Below, piece by piece: positions 23,443 to 39,408 of a stretch of DNA of 64,000 nucleotides. This DNA comes from Chthoniobacterales bacterium (GTDB lineage: Bacteria > Verrucomicrobiota > Verrucomicrobiia > Chthoniobacterales > JACTMZ01): positions 62,001-126,000 of the forward strand of contig JAGYIO010000005.1 in NCBI GenBank assembly GCA_018402585.1, given 5' to 3'. The number at the start of each line of letters is the position of its first letter. Within the stretch, counting starts at the first letter, position 1. The position numbers and the translations under genes are program-made. The notes under the pieces were generated by a model. It saw nothing but the letters and a program-made list of their open reading frames with translations. It was not told where the DNA came from and searched no databases.

Positions 23443-23476
23443 CATTTTGCAGTGCGGCGGCTTGCCGCCGTTTTGC
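23443..23476 (+). repeat. Dispersed repeat TTTTGCAGTGCGGCGG..., hairpin copy
   Basis: cattttgcagtgcggcgg followed by cttgccgccg: the head TTTTGnAGTGCGGCGGC and a hairpin with arms cggcgg/ccgccg. Same family as the copies at 4097, 36018 and 37316. It lies in the leader of the following gene. Confidence 0.65.
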
Positions 23477-34683: not shown

Positions 34684-34867
34684 TGCCACGCCCCACTAAT
34701 TTGGGTTGCGGGCGCCCCGCCCGTGTGGTCTGTCGGAAAACGGGTGAACCGAAGTCCGCCGCGGCGGACGTAAATCGCCCATAGGCAAACGCCCATTCCC
34801 CCTGGGCTTTGCCCGCCCCAGTTACTTCCCAGCACACGCCCGCCGCGCGCAGGTTCAGGGACTGCCC

Positions 34868-34940
34868 ATTCACACCCCCGCCCCATGGGCTAATTTGATG
34901 TTGATGAAAGCAGCCGCCCTCCTCGCCCTGCTCACCGCCT
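34868..34940 (+). repeat. Direct repeat carrying promoter and signal-peptide start, copy 1
   Basis: About 85 percent matched by eye to 35417-35490: the -35/-10 region, ATG and the codons for MKAAALLALL are shared. In this copy the -35 box reads TTCACA rather than TTGACA. Confidence 0.65.
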
Positions 34941-34978
34941 CGAAGATCCACGCCCGCGCAGCGACTTTACGCGCATGA
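34904..34978 (+). pseudogene. Truncated copy of the Cys-rich exported protein gene
   Basis: ATG then MKAAALLALL identical to the start of the gene at 35454, but the frame leaves homology after about 12 codons and stops at 34978. The stop overlaps the ATG of the hicB-like gene. It looks like a remnant left by duplication, with hicBA now lying between the two copies. Confidence 0.5.
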
Positions 34979-35202
34979 AATACCCGGTCGTCCTGATCAA
35001 AAGCGACGAAGACTACGCAGCCGGTTGCCCGGTGCTTTCTGGTTGCTGGACCCAGGGCGCCACCCGCACCGAGGCCATGGAGAACATCACCATCGCCATC
35101 CGCGAAGTGCTCGAAGTCAAAGCCGAACTCAAGGACGAGCAATGGCGCCGCGAAGGTGAAGTTGTCGAGTCCGCCCAGGTAGACGTTCCGGTCCAGGCCT
35201 AA
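34975..35202 (+). CDS. HicB-like antitoxin
   Basis: 75 residues: MKYPVVLIKSDEDYAAGCPVLSGCWTQGATRTEAMENITIAIREVLE is the partial-RNase-H fold of short HicB proteins (UPF0150), which bind HicA. No DNA-binding extension is present. The partner hicA directly downstream is broken, so this antitoxin is probably an orphan. Confidence 0.75.
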   Translation: MKYPVVLIKSDEDYAAGCPVLSGCWTQGATRTEAMENITIAIREVLEVKAELKDEQWRREGEVVESAQVDVPVQA

Positions 35203-35405
35203 AATCCCCGGCATTCGACACAAGGATGCCAACCGCGCCTTGGAGAAAACGGGTTGGCGGGTCGTGCGCGAGGGCAAACACACCATCCTGGGCAAAGGAA
35301 CGGAAGCTTTGCCCATCCCGGCAGAACCCTGTCAACGCCATGACAATGGGTGCCATCGCCAAAGCCGCCGGCCTCACGCCCGAAGAGTTCCGCCGTCTCA
35401 TTTGA
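35183..35405 (+). pseudogene. Broken hicA toxin gene
   Basis: The frame gives KIPGIRHKDANRALEKTGW RVVREGKHTILGKG, the dsRBD-like HicA core with its catalytic histidine, but there is no start codon after the hicB stop. After ALPIP the reading frame shifts: QNPVNAMTMGAIAKAAGL TPEEFRRLI continues in another frame. A missing pair of bases (or one extra) near 35322 explains it. The toxin cannot be made as a normal protein. Confidence 0.75.
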
Positions 35406-35416
35406 TCTAGCTCCTT

Positions 35417-35490
35417 ATTGACAACCCCCACCCCATGGACTAATCTGCTCGTAATGAAAGCAGCCGCCCTCCTCGCTCTGCTCGCCTCCT
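35417..35490 (+). repeat. Direct repeat carrying promoter and signal-peptide start, copy 2
   Basis: Second copy of the 34868-34940 segment, with the intact TTGACA box and the functional gene start. Confidence 0.65.
35418..35446 (+). promoter_or_regulatory. Near-consensus promoter, leaderless
   Basis: TTGACA at 35418-35423, exactly 17 bases, TAATCT at 35441-35446. The ATG is at 35454, where transcription would itself start, so the message should be leaderless. Confidence 0.7.
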
Positions 35491-35762
35491 TGGCCCTCGC
35501 GCCGCTCTCCACTGCCTTTGCCACGGTCAGCCCGGTGAATTGCGCCGCCCAGTGCTGTCAGACCGACCCGGACTGCTGCGAGACCGCGGCCTGTCCGTGT
35601 CCGCCCTTCGCCTGCCACCCGACCGGCGCCGCCTTGATCAACATTCCCGCGCTCGCTCCAATTTCCGTTTTCGAGCCCCGCTCCTTTGCCGCGGCCGACC
35701 TCGAGAACGACTCCTACCTGGTGCGGACCTCACGTCCGCCCGTTCCCCCGCCCCGAGCCTGA
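35454..35762 (+). CDS. Exported cysteine-rich protein
   Basis: 102 residues. Signal peptide MKAAALLALLASLALAPLSTAFA with an AFA cleavage site. The mature part opens with a cysteine cluster of pattern C-x3-CC-x5-CC-x4-C-x-C-x4-C (eight Cys in about 23 residues), then a Cys-free Pro/Leu-rich tail. Such clusters bind thiophilic metals or form disulfides. The next small gene encodes a similar cluster, so the two may act together in the periplasm. No family recognised. A longer frame starting at TTG 35418 would swallow the promoter and is rejected. Confidence 0.65.
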   Translation: MKAAALLALLASLALAPLSTAFATVSPVNCAAQCCQTDPDCCETAACPCPPFACHPTGAALINIPALAPISVFEPRSFAAADLENDSYLVRTSRPPVPPPRA

Positions 35763-35840
35763 AGGCTCACTCAGCGTCGGCTTCCGTCCTGGGCGGACGG
35801 AAGAAAACCTCGGAACTTAACCTTAATGGAGATTATCAAA

Positions 35841-35972
35841 ATGAAAAAATTCCTCTTCACAAGCTTGGCTGTCCTCGCCCTGTCCTTCACGGCCACGGCG
35901 CAAGAAGTCTGCACGTGCACCGACTGCGGCGGCCAATGCTGCCCCTGCGCCTGCGCGGCCGGCTGCTGCTAA
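35841..35972 (+). CDS. Tiny exported cysteine-rich peptide, metallothionein-like
   Basis: 43 residues, too short for usual gene calls. MKKFLFTSLAVLALSFTATAQ is a clear signal peptide with Sec-type ATAQ end. The mature 22-23 residues read EVCTCTDCGGQCCPCACAAGCC: nine cysteines as CxC, CC and CxCxC motifs, typical of thiolate metal-binding peptides. GGAG lies about 10 bases before the ATG. A GC hairpin (cttccgtcc/cggacggaag, about 35780-35802) precedes it and a strong terminator follows. Metal binding is inferred from composition; a disulfide-rich toxin-like peptide is an alternative. Confidence 0.65.
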   Translation: MKKFLFTSLAVLALSFTATAQEVCTCTDCGGQCCPCACAAGCC

Positions 35973-35997: not shown

Positions 35998-36031
35998 ACG
36001 CGCCCCGGGAAACCGGGGCGCGTCTTTTTTT
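35998..36031 (+). terminator. Strong Rho-independent terminator with GAAA loop
   Basis: acgcgccccgg-GAAA-ccggggcgcgt followed by CTTTTTTT. An 11-base perfect stem with a stable tetraloop, 25 bases after the Cys-rich peptide. The right arm and T-run are duplicated at 37316 after the ATPase gene. Confidence 0.92.
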
Positions 36032-36165: not shown

Positions 36166-37308
36166 ATGATCGACCGTCCTCTCTGGAAACAGCGCCTGGC
36201 GGCCGCTTGGCGCAAAGTCCCTCTGGTCTGGCTGGCCGGCGTACGTCGCGTGGGGAAAACCGTCCTCGCCAAGGAACTCGGTGACGCGGAATTCCTCAAC
36301 TGCGACCTGCCGGCCGAAGCCGCACGTCTCGCCGACCCGGAAGCGTTCTTCCGTGCCGTGAGCAAACCCCTCGTGATCCTCGACGAGGTCCACCAATTAC
36401 CCGACCCCAGCCGCGTGCTGAAGATCGCCACCGATGCCTTCCCCGGATTGAAAATCCTGGCCACCGGATCCTCCACGCTGGCCGCGACCCGCAAATTCCG
36501 CGACACCCTGACCGGACGCAAACGCTCGGTTGTTCTCGAGCCCGTGCTGGTGGAAGAACTTCCCGCCTTCAGTATCCAAGACCTCAAGGTCCGCTTGCTG
36601 CACGGCGGTCTGCCCCCGGCCTTGTTGTCCGCCACACCCGACTGGGAATTCTACGCCGAATGGCTTGACTCCTACTTTGCGCGCGATGTGCAGGAGCTTT
36701 TCCGGGTCGAAAAAAGAAGCGCCTTCCTTTTGCTCGTGGAACTCATCCTGCGCCAGAGCGGCGGACTCGCCGAGATTACCTCCCTAGCCAAACACGCCGG
36801 CGTGAGCCGGCCCACGGTGATGAGCTGGCTCGAAGTGCTCCAAGCCACGCACGCGGTCCGTCTGCTCCGTCCGTTCTCAGGCGGCGGCCGGCGCGAGTTG
36901 CTGGCCCGTCCGAAAATCTACGGATTCGACACCGGTTTCATTTGCCACGCCCGCGGCTGGGACCGCTTGCGCCTCGAAGACTGCGGACAGCTCTGGGAGC
37001 ACCTAGTGCTGGACACACTGCTCTCCATCCCGTTGCCACGTCTGCATTTCTGGCGCGACGAATCCGGCCGCGAGATCGATTTCGTCATCCCGCAAACCCG
37101 CAGCCGCGTCGATGCGCTCGAAACCAAATGGAACGCCGAGGCCTTCGAAGCAAACAGCCTCGCCCGCTTCCGCGAGTCCTACCCTCACGGCCGCAACCTC
37201 GTCATCGCCCCCAACATCACCAAACCCTACACCCGTCGCATCAAAAATCTGGAAATCGAGTTCCTCCCCGTCGAACAACTCCGGCCAATCCTGACCAACC
37301 ACCCCTGA
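36166..37308 (+). CDS. AAA-family ATPase with DUF4143
   Basis: 380 residues. N-terminal AAA domain with Walker A AGVRRVGKTVLAK and Walker B LVILDEVHQLP. The middle holds an arginine-containing sensor block, then a winged-helix segment (LAKHAGVSRPTVMSWLEVL), and a C-terminal DUF4143 nuclease-like fold with ESGREIDFVI, the Asp-containing motif of PD-(D/E)XK-type domains, and ALETKW. Such genes are mobile, solitary and of uncertain role; links to defence or plasmid maintenance are suggested. Flanking direct repeats suggest it arrived as a unit. The start follows an operator-like repeat. Confidence 0.85.
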   Translation: MIDRPLWKQRLAAAWRKVPLVWLAGVRRVGKTVLAKELGDAEFLNCDLPAEAARLADPEAFFRAVSKPLVILDEVHQLPDPSRVLKIATDAFPGLKILATGSSTLAATRKFRDTLTGRKRSVVLEPVLVEELPAFSIQDLKVRLLHGGLPPALLSATPDWEFYAEWLDSYFARDVQELFRVEKRSAFLLLVELILRQSGGLAEITSLAKHAGVSRPTVMSWLEVLQATHAVRLLRPFSGGGRRELLARPKIYGFDTGFICHARGWDRLRLEDCGQLWEHLVLDTLLSIPLPRLHFWRDESGREIDFVIPQTRSRVDALETKWNAEAFEANSLARFRESYPHGRNLVIAPNITKPYTRRIKNLEIEFLPVEQLRPILTNHP

Positions 37309-37524: not shown

Positions 37525-37761
37525 CCCGCACACTACATTCCCCCAGCTCCGCACATGCAGCGACCCCGGCTCCAAATGCTCCATCGCCACAAACCGCTGC
37601 AACCCCGCCTCCTCTGGATCGCAGGTCTCAGCACAATTCTTCACCACGTCCCCAAGGCGCACCCGCTTCCACCCCGTGCGGTCGAAGAGCGGGAGGGAGG
37701 CCCAGGCCGGATTGGGAACCACGGATTTCACCGATGACACGGACGGGAGGGTGACAGTCAT
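37522..37761 (-). pseudogene. Truncated type I restriction specificity subunit (HsdS)
   Basis: 79 codons. RTGWKRVRLGDVVKNCAETCDP then LQRFVAMEHLEPGSLHVRSWGNVV is the start of the first target-recognition domain of HsdS; normal proteins are about 400 residues and continue with a DGTTF-type segment. Here it ends at once in CG and a stop, at a GGGGTCAGATC repeat. Its ATG overlaps the abiEii-like stop as ATGA, so it was translated with the toxin gene. No hsdR or hsdM is in the window. Confidence 0.75.
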
Positions 37762-38783
37762 GCGGTGGCATTAAAGGTTTTCTCGAACTCGGTCGCTGCG
37801 GTCATCATTTGCTCGAAGGTGGGTGTATCACCGAAGAACATCGGCCCGAGCATGTCCTGGTAGTCGCGGCGCCAGTTGGGCAGATGGTCTGCGGGCGGCG
37901 AGAGGCGGAAGGTGCCGGGCTTGTGGGTGGAGTAGTCCACCCATGAGTGCCGGAAGAAGATTTCCCGGTGCTCGGCGACACGCTGAAAGAGGGCGGTATT
38001 GGCCAGCGCTCGCTCGCCGACTCCGGCCTGGAGCAGGCACCAAAGGTCGTAATAATGCCGGGCCATGCGGAGCTTTCGCGGCTTATCGGCAGGACGAAAA
38101 GTCTCCTCGTGGAGCAGGCAGGCCTTTTCCCAAAAGGTGCGCTCGGCAGCGAGGACGCGGACGGGAAAGGCACCATCGGGATCGAAAGCGGGGAAGTGTT
38201 CGATGACGTAGGGAAGGATCGCCTTTTCATCGTGGGGCCAGTCATCAGAGCGTGCTCCGAGTTCGATCTTCACGACGGGGCGCACATAACCTGCACTGCC
38301 GGCGGGGAAGACCGTCGGATAATGAAACAGCAGGCACTGACCATCGGGCATGTCGGGATCGACCTCGATCTTCCAACCGGTGTCGCCGAGAGCGGCTTGG
38401 ATGCGCTCGGTGAGGCCAGGCATCAAACTGCCCTGCACCCACTCCAGGGAGGCCGCCATGAGTGCCTCCAAACGCAACCTGCGCTGTTTGTTGCTGGGAG
38501 CTTTGTCCGGGGCGACATCACCGCCCAAGCCGAGCACCTCCTTGTCCACGATGAGATCAATATCCTCGGAGAAGCGCTGGATGAGCTTCCAGGCCTTTGA
38601 GAGCGAGGTGCCGCCTTTGAAGGTGAGATGTTCGCCGATGCCGGGCAGGGTGAAGAGTTCGCGCAGGGTCCAGCAGACCCAGAGGTCTTTCTCGACGCTG
38701 ATGGCATCCAACCGGGTGACGCGGGAAACCTCCAGAAATGCCCCCAGGCGTTCTTGTGCCGTCCGTTGAAGAAACGCATTCAT
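37758..38783 (-). CDS. AbiEii/AbiGii-type nucleotidyltransferase toxin
   Basis: 341 residues from MNAFLQRTAQERLGAFLEV. ISVEKDLWVCWTLRELF, then LTFKGGTSLSKAWKLIQRFSEDIDLIVD is the DNA-polymerase-beta-like nucleotidyltransferase core (GG-S and D-x-D). ERTFWEKACLLHEE and RMARHYYDLWCLL are also standard. AbiEii transfers nucleotides to tRNA or another target and stops growth on phage infection. It begins one base after the partner antitoxin gene and overlaps the hsdS fragment, an arrangement seen where AbiE pairs sit inside type I restriction loci. Looks intact. Confidence 0.85.
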   Translation of the reverse strand: MNAFLQRTAQERLGAFLEVSRVTRLDAISVEKDLWVCWTLRELFTLPGIGEHLTFKGGTSLSKAWKLIQRFSEDIDLIVDKEVLGLGGDVAPDKAPSNKQRRLRLEALMAASLEWVQGSLMPGLTERIQAALGDTGWKIEVDPDMPDGQCLLFHYPTVFPAGSAGYVRPVVKIELGARSDDWPHDEKAILPYVIEHFPAFDPDGAFPVRVLAAERTFWEKACLLHEETFRPADKPRKLRMARHYYDLWCLLQAGVGERALANTALFQRVAEHREIFFRHSWVDYSTHKPGTFRLSPPADHLPNWRRDYQDMLGPMFFGDTPTFEQMMTAATEFEKTFNATA

Positions 38784-38784
38784 C

Positions 38785-39408
38785 TCAAGAAACGGGCTCT
38801 TCCGTTGCGACACGTCGGAAGATGTCGGCAATCCAAGCGGGAGCGCATGCCGCATCGGCGGTAAGACTGGCGCGGTCTGCTGGCGAGAGGTGACGGCGCA
38901 GCCTAGCAATCACATCATCATCCACGAATCGCTTGCCGATCCAGCGCAGGGCAAGGATCACCCGTGCGCTCGTCGGATTCTTCGTTGAAACGAAACGCGG
39001 CGAAACATGGCGCAGGACGGTCTCGGATTTCCCGTGCCGAATACGGCAGCTCCGACCAGTGGTAAGATACCAGGGTCGCATCGGCACCTGATCGCTCAAT
39101 CCAAGGGCATTGGCAGCATGGGCGCCCGTCGGAAAGATGTCGCCGTTGCTTTTCCGGCGCAGAAGATCCTGCCATCCGTCAAAGCTGGGGCCAATGCTGC
39201 CCATAATGGGGTCGTGACGGGGGATATGATACAGCCCGCGCCCGGCGCGGCGGAGGTGCCCGGACTGGCCGTTGCGTGAGAGCGCCTTGTCCACCGCCGC
39301 ACGCGGACCGAGATCAAGGAAATCCGCAGGCGTCCAGACGCGATCCTTCGGCCCGGACCGGATACGGTCGAGGATTGCGGCGTCGATGGAATTTGAGCGT
39401 TTCTTCAT
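38785..39408 (-). CDS. AbiEi-like antitoxin (DUF6088 type)
   Basis: 207 residues. The N-terminal winged-helix (AAILDRIRSGPKDRVWTPADFLDLGPRAAVDKALSRN) with RRAGRGLYHIPRHDP is the AbiEi/DUF6088 DNA-binding part; the C-terminal half (ANALGLSDQVPMRPWYLTTG) is the AbiEi-like domain. It is expected to bind and repress its own promoter and counter the toxin encoded one base downstream. The AT-rich upstream region (39420-39460) contains TTGTC/GACAA arms and probably the promoter. Confidence 0.8.
   Translation of the reverse strand: MKKRSNSIDAAILDRIRSGPKDRVWTPADFLDLGPRAAVDKALSRNGQSGHLRRAGRGLYHIPRHDPIMGSIGPSFDGWQDLLRRKSNGDIFPTGAHAANALGLSDQVPMRPWYLTTGRSCRIRHGKSETVLRHVSPRFVSTKNPTSARVILALRWIGKRFVDDDVIARLRRHLSPADRASLTADAACAPAWIADIFRRVATEEPVS

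Follow-up and report, generated by a model that had tools for sequence, protein, structure and literature searches.

A putative CutF-like leader and a predicted exported metallothionein-like peptide encoded by a two-gene unit of a Chthoniobacterales bacterium

The stretch of DNA analysed, hereafter the window, comprises 64,000 nt of a Chthoniobacterales contig and carries a compact unit of two small genes on its forward (+) strand, on which all features of the unit lie. The first gene, ORF1 (35454..35762), which we propose to encode an exported CutF-like leader and metal sensor, specifies a protein of 102 aa with eight cysteines after a hydrophobic N-terminus. The cysteines are clustered from C30 to C54 (35541..35615) as CxxxCC, CC and CxC, and the C-terminal RPPVPPPRA-stop (35733..35762) is a proposed ribosome-pausing tail. 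The second gene, ORF2 (35841..35972), encodes a predicted exported metallothionein-like peptide of 43 aa, with a signal-like part of 20 residues (35841-35900) and a mature part of 23 residues containing nine cysteines (35901-35969). The ORF listing begins ORF2 at an in-frame upstream ATG at 35826; the ATG at 35841 was preferred because it is preceded by the Shine-Dalgarno sequence GGAG (35828..35831) and because the relatives, most of which have GGAG or AGGAGG at this place, align from there. Signal peptides of ORF1, ORF2 and their relatives were judged by eye and with a hydropathy filter. An earlier sequence-only reading of the window had placed two adjacent exported Cys-rich mini-proteins in one unit here; both ORFs were confirmed and were found to be conserved together.

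The putative promoter of the unit is located at 35418..35446, with TTGACA at 35418-35423 and TAATCT at 35441-35446, separated by 17 nt. The −35 box is a perfect match and precedes the start codon of ORF1 by 36 nt; the −10 candidate matches the consensus at three of six positions. A promoter scan of the window did not have the TTGACA/TAATCT pair among its predictions, and gave no promoter in the gap between ORF1 and ORF2. In all seven loci of the genus, TTGAC is found at −33 to −36 nt from the leader start codon, so that the transcript probably starts at or beside the ORF1 ATG, and the ORF1 mRNA is probably leaderless or nearly so. The near-consensus leaderless promoter claimed earlier thus held for its −35 half and its conserved position, but not for its −10 half, and the scan was silent on it. 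The strong terminator claimed at the end of the unit was found as an intrinsic terminator (35998..36023) with an 11-bp stem and a T run, and a similar stem is present in the 3′ flanks of all seven genus loci. An Rfam search gave two sub-threshold matches only, both at this terminator.

Upstream of the unit, a 74-nt decayed partial copy (34867-34940) of the ORF1 promoter and signal-sequence start (35416-35490) suggests that the unit was once duplicated. It is followed at 34975-35405 by an ORF for a HicB-like antitoxin (PF15919, E 1.2e-4, below cut-off) and then a HicA-like remnant that appears broken by eye. Directly 3′ of the unit is the gene of an AAA_14/DUF4143 ATPase (36166-37308), a near-identical gene being also found 3′ of the unit in genome G009, and beyond it an AbiEii-type nucleotidyltransferase gene with a DUF6088 partner (37758-39408). 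A dispersed repeat, GTGCGGCGGCTNGACGCCGCTTT, occurs at 23452, 36035 and 37333 with one or two mismatches, where none would be expected by chance.

A leader ORF is located 69-84 nt upstream of ORF2 in each of the seven genus loci (78 nt in the window). Searching with the ORF1 sequence alone recovered six of the seven genus orthologues, and the copy in genome G004 was reached only by a profile. Across the genus, ORF1 identity drops to 35%, and the number and spacing of its cysteines differ between loci, yet PPVPPPRA-stop is invariant in all seven. The last eight codons have a pN of 0 and a pS of 0.38, compared with 0.38 and 0.63 for ORF1 without its last 12 codons. No Pfam family, DUF2946 included, was matched by ORF1 at E values up to 1.

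Full-length ORF2 was found in 7 of the 11 genomes of the family, all of one genus and counting the window's own genome; the four genomes lacking it are 65-90% complete. All nine cysteines are invariant in the genus (six distinct sequences at seven loci), with the consensus CxCTDCGGxCCPCxCxAGCC, and the cysteine spacing on which the sequence-only reading depended is therefore kept at all seven loci. The mature part has a pN/pS of 0.60, which by this measure and with the fixed cysteines aside is a weak constraint. Searches against Pfam and NCBIfam, including the metallothionein families, gave for ORF2 sub-threshold matches only, to signal-like parts. As neither ORF has a match above cut-off in these databases, the earlier statement that neither family is recognised still applies. 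Nothing significant was found in the PDB, the best match being a defensin (E 0.34), and a pattern search of viral contigs gave 34 fitting stretches with no relative among them. At E 0.1 the ORF2 profile matched 51 of the 213 genomes of the order, 7 of them with the full-length genus loci. Seventeen weak loci of this profile were inspected and were mostly signal-part or chance matches, with the exception of L045; a second ORF2 match in the window's own genome (L002, E 0.027) was rejected, having neither a start codon nor an ORF2-like Cys layout. A coding artefact as an account of the two ORFs was set aside because the ORFs are conserved.

The leader profile matched 27 of the 213 order genomes, comprising the 7 of the genus and 20 others. 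In 18 of these 20 the next gene encodes an exported Cys-rich peptide, frameshifted in one; the remaining two are one degenerate locus and one apparent chance match. The reverse search from the peptide of family f11 matched 38 of the 213 genomes. Among 30 of the loci reached in this way, the leader tail was found by pattern in 24 and as a variant by eye in three, while one locus is truncated where its contig stops and two have none. Fourteen of the 30 sit in genomes already known from the leader search; of the 16 newly reached genomes, 13 showed a leader (10 of them by pattern and 3 by eye). A second leader profile, applied to even samples of 387 genomes from the phylum and 384 from the class, matched 8 and 35 of them respectively, counts which include the genus and order genomes already known. 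These searches revealed a recurring arrangement of leader, short gap and exported Cys-rich peptide, found by filter at 45 of 57 inspected loci in seven families of the class; this proportion is no frequency, because the 57 loci came from the matches of earlier searches. The 12 loci failing the filter were L068 (peptide frameshifted), L073, L074, L097 (CusF fusion), L099, L107 (contig begins 77 nt upstream), L126, L128, L145, L028, L030 and L040, the last three being other small exported Cys peptides for which the filter found no such leader. A set of 25 loci was used for the intergenic region, with gaps of 56-96 nt between leader and peptide; L073, a degenerate locus whose leader frame enters the peptide, and L074, without Cys and taken as chance, were omitted from it.

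Motifs of the peptides are specific to families, with CC..CC..CC in f11, SCPxCCKDxDCxTCCKGKC in f10 and a motif of its own in the window's genus; depending on the locus, the peptides contain 5 to 18 cysteines, and homology between peptides of different families is not obvious from their sequences. The leaders of family f4 have a tail of another type, SHAPP. A CxxxC motif (C30-x3-C34 in the window) is present in six of the seven genus leaders and in 30 of 45 leaders over all families. The distance from the last Cys motif to the tail is 41 residues in 19 of 25 f11 leaders and 34-38 residues in the other six. In the genus this distance is 45-47 residues in five of seven leaders and 18 in the other two, because an extra CC sits nearer the tail there. 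GTT encodes the valine of the tail in 20 of 27 cases, versus 40 of 152 for valines in the rest of the leaders, a contrast inflated by kinship.

An intergenic RNA hairpin with a 9-bp stem and a 5-nt loop is located at 35781..35803 (p 0.01 versus shuffles at the window locus). Against dinucleotide shuffles, the best perfect stem is superior at p ≤0.05 in 17 of the 25 loci. Over all 25, it begins 17-20 nt past the stop of ORF1 in 15 and stops 26-37 nt short of ORF2 in 23; the hairpin leaves the ORF2 Shine-Dalgarno uncovered. Folding of the whole region gave a mean z of −0.81, with values below −1.5 in 9 of the 25 loci, and the fold of the entire window unit gave a z of −1.61. When 17 of the 25 intergenic regions were aligned with MAFFT, RNAalifold returned no consensus structure, and the 3′ arms were misaligned also in a second alignment, of 15 hairpins. 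With stems anchored at the base, 17 of the 25 loci gave 11 distinct arm pairs, in which seven of eight positions were changed on both sides. That eight of eight pairs form in these loci is by construction, because a stem of 8 bp or more was the condition for selecting them; arms swapped among the 11 distinct pairs gave 5.05 of 8 pairs. The support for the hairpin consists of the shuffle test and the variety of stem sequences. The PPV codons of the tail can also pair with the ORF2 Shine-Dalgarno, with 11 pairs in genome G119. Over 35 loci, swapped and synonymous controls each matched or beat the loci's own pairing in 9 of 300 trials, which is weak overall; individually, 3 of the 35 reach 0.05, and in the window the pairing is no better than in synonymous controls (a fraction of 0.53 of trials equal or better).

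Genes related to metals were found beside the unit in several relatives. An HMBD motif is encoded 3′ of the pair on the same strand at 8 of 30 f11 loci, and four of the proteins were confirmed by Pfam. In genome G534, the gene after the leader encodes a CusF domain (PF11604, E 1.6e-12) with the N-terminal sequence CDQCACPDCKGKSACCCH. In G046, the peptide gene is followed by that of a CCxxC protein without Pfam match and further on by OEP, multicopper oxidase and CusB-like genes. OEP and CusB-like genes are divergent from the unit in G107, and in G441 the genes of the leader and of an RND pump flank that of a peptide with 18 cysteines. Units of the window's genus had no recognised metal gene beside them (by eye, with Pfam for the window only), and the P-type ATPase matches to TIGR01511 in the window's own genome were all below cut-off. 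Judged from the sequences, copper or silver would be the likeliest ligand, and copper is the candidate adopted below. Behind the pair at locus L081 (2265-3737) is the gene of an exported, Met-rich protein, about 490 aa long, in which an N-terminal HMBD is the sole Pfam match.

ORF1 is similar to CutF of Rhodobacter capsulatus. CutF has the tail PEPEGPPPRL (PMC8456105) and governs cutO translation via a CxxxC motif, a Pro-rich tail and a stem-loop that shields the cutO Shine-Dalgarno (PMC9973294). ORF1 is likewise small, predicted to be exported and Cys-containing, and is the first gene of its unit, with a Pro-rich C-terminus in which PPPR and one hydrophobic residue precede the stop, and with a short gap to the next gene that contains a stem-loop. 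With 102 aa, a signal by eye and hydropathy, and PP in its last 15 residues, it falls within the filters applied to CutF-like proteins (<150 aa, N-terminal signal peptide, PP within the last 15 residues; PMC9973294). It differs from CutF in its target, an exported Cys-rich mini-peptide and not a multicopper oxidase, in its larger number of cysteines (eight, in CC and CxC), in a hairpin that excludes the Shine-Dalgarno and in a probably leaderless mRNA. With CruR (DUF2946) of Bordetella pertussis, ORF1 shares the idea of a nascent-chain copper sensor in which the spacing between a Cys motif and a Pro motif at the C-terminus is conserved; the spacing is 45 residues in CruR (PMC9426467), whose stalling was shown later in vitro (PMC12992588).

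ORF2 is like the metallothioneins (bacterial SmtA/PmtA and MymT, and a fungal copper metallothionein of 25 residues) in being tiny and very rich in cysteine, with CxC and CC clusters. Unlike them, it has no Pfam or NCBIfam match above cut-off, carries a signal peptide and is, as proposed here, controlled by a leader; bacterial metallothioneins are mostly cytoplasmic. As a proposed Cys-based metal store outside the cytoplasm, ORF2 would resemble Csp1 and the periplasmic NGO1701. Csp copper storage proteins are Cys-lined four-helix bundles, and ORF2, whose 23 mature residues could not accommodate four helices, is not one of them. CutF-like sensors have been described upstream of oxidases, pumps and transporters. 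Neither the CutF nor the CruR papers use the word metallothionein in their main text, and no paper on a leader target of this kind was found in the literature covered, preprints and most subscription journals being outside that coverage.

We consider it fairly probable that ORF1 acts as a CutF-like leader regulating ORF2, and that the latter is a metallothionein-like exported peptide turned on by a metal-paused ribosome. ORF1 is taken as a leader because of its invariant Pro tail, its variable body, the hairpin after its stop and the differing Cys-rich genes behind it. Conservation, gene order, the tail, the narrow Cys-to-tail spacing, the hairpin and the metal-gene contexts of relatives are observed; pausing, the identity of the metal, induction by metal, the working of the RNA switch and metal binding by ORF2 are conditional parts of the scheme. 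ORF1 would be made from a leaderless or nearly leaderless mRNA and exported by Sec while bound to the ribosome. Judged from sequence spacing, the Cys motif, some 38-47 residues before RPPVPPPRA, would be just clear of the ribosome when the tail is reached. A metal, most likely Cu(I), on this motif would retain the nascent ORF1, and the ribosome would pause on the proline codons, altering the mRNA fold between the genes and permitting ORF2 translation. The exported ORF2, with about 23 mature residues and nine thiols, could then buffer the metal outside the cytoplasm.

The sequence-only reading had taken both ORFs for effectors, a periplasmic thiol metal-binding pair, in which case the Pro tail of ORF1 would be a protein-interaction element. 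ORF1 and ORF2 are indeed both predicted to be exported, Cys-rich and co-occurring, but the cysteines of ORF1 vary in number and spacing while its final residues before the stop are fixed, a hairpin lies 3′ of that stop, and the genes downstream change, the same leader type preceding unrelated peptides and a related type preceding larger proteins in other genomes of the class. ORF1 therefore looks like a leader, and a pair of effectors is improbable. A thiol-redox system, raised in the same reading, was set aside since no evidence supporting it was found.

We also regard as improbable a control of opposite direction, in which metal would relieve the ORF1 pause and ORF2 would be switched off, for example by Rho termination, and would serve acquisition or delivery. 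CruR answers copper in this direction, and both its Pro motif at the C-terminus and the distance from its Cys to that motif are conserved (PMC9426467); moreover, CutF-like proteins include both directions (PMC9973294). ORF1, however, has neither a DUF2946 match nor RAPP, ending in RPPVPPPRA instead, and its gaps are shorter, 56-96 nt at 25 loci versus 162 nt for cruR-bfrG; the neighbours in relatives are efflux and oxidase genes, from which induction by metal is expected. It is very unlikely that ORF2 is a disulfide-rich secreted peptide of bacteriocin or defensin type that binds no metal. Short, exported and Cys-rich, it would suit such a role, and its top PDB match, not significant, is the defensin; but its neighbouring CC and CxC pairs fit thiolate clusters, the Cys count varies widely between loci, a comparable Cys segment occurs as a fusion with CusF, other peptides adjoin RND or oxidase genes, and no immunity gene was seen among the window neighbours run through Pfam. 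A bacteriocin was set aside on these gene contexts.

Several observations count against the reading of ORF1 as a CutF-like leader of ORF2: the uncovered Shine-Dalgarno, the weak pairing of the tail with it, the absent RNAalifold consensus, the pN/pS of ORF2, the genus units without a recognised metal neighbour and the lack of CxxxC in 15 of the 45 leaders. By analogy, the known systems may also weigh against it, given the opposite copper response of CruR and a LepB fusion test of CutF in which a strong stall was not demonstrated (PMC9973294). If the reading is true, a leader sensing metal beyond the membrane would, together with an exported thiol peptide of some 23 residues, make a complete two-gene metal buffer that works without a transcription factor and a compact metal-responsive cassette, a set of unannotated Cys-rich mini-genes would be accounted for, and it would become testable how the thiols of such a peptide are maintained in an extracytoplasmic setting. 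A wider proposition is possible but doubtful: that extracytoplasmic mini-metallothioneins under nascent-chain metal sensors recur across Verrucomicrobiota, family-specific and with mature parts of about 20-60 residues and 5-18 cysteines, and that in some of them the pausing codons double as an anti-Shine-Dalgarno, one sequence being both arrest peptide and RNA switch.

The small peptide is not universal behind such leaders, as larger proteins follow those at L140, L151 and other loci, in which the body of the leader is different. These belong to a second CutF-like leader type in the class, with the motif TFDGxHPCxLC and the tail PPxPPPR, found at L140, L141, L143, L144, L147, L149, L150 and L151. 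The proteins downstream at L140 and L151 have a CACGCG motif after the signal and, by eye, the look of outer-membrane barrels.
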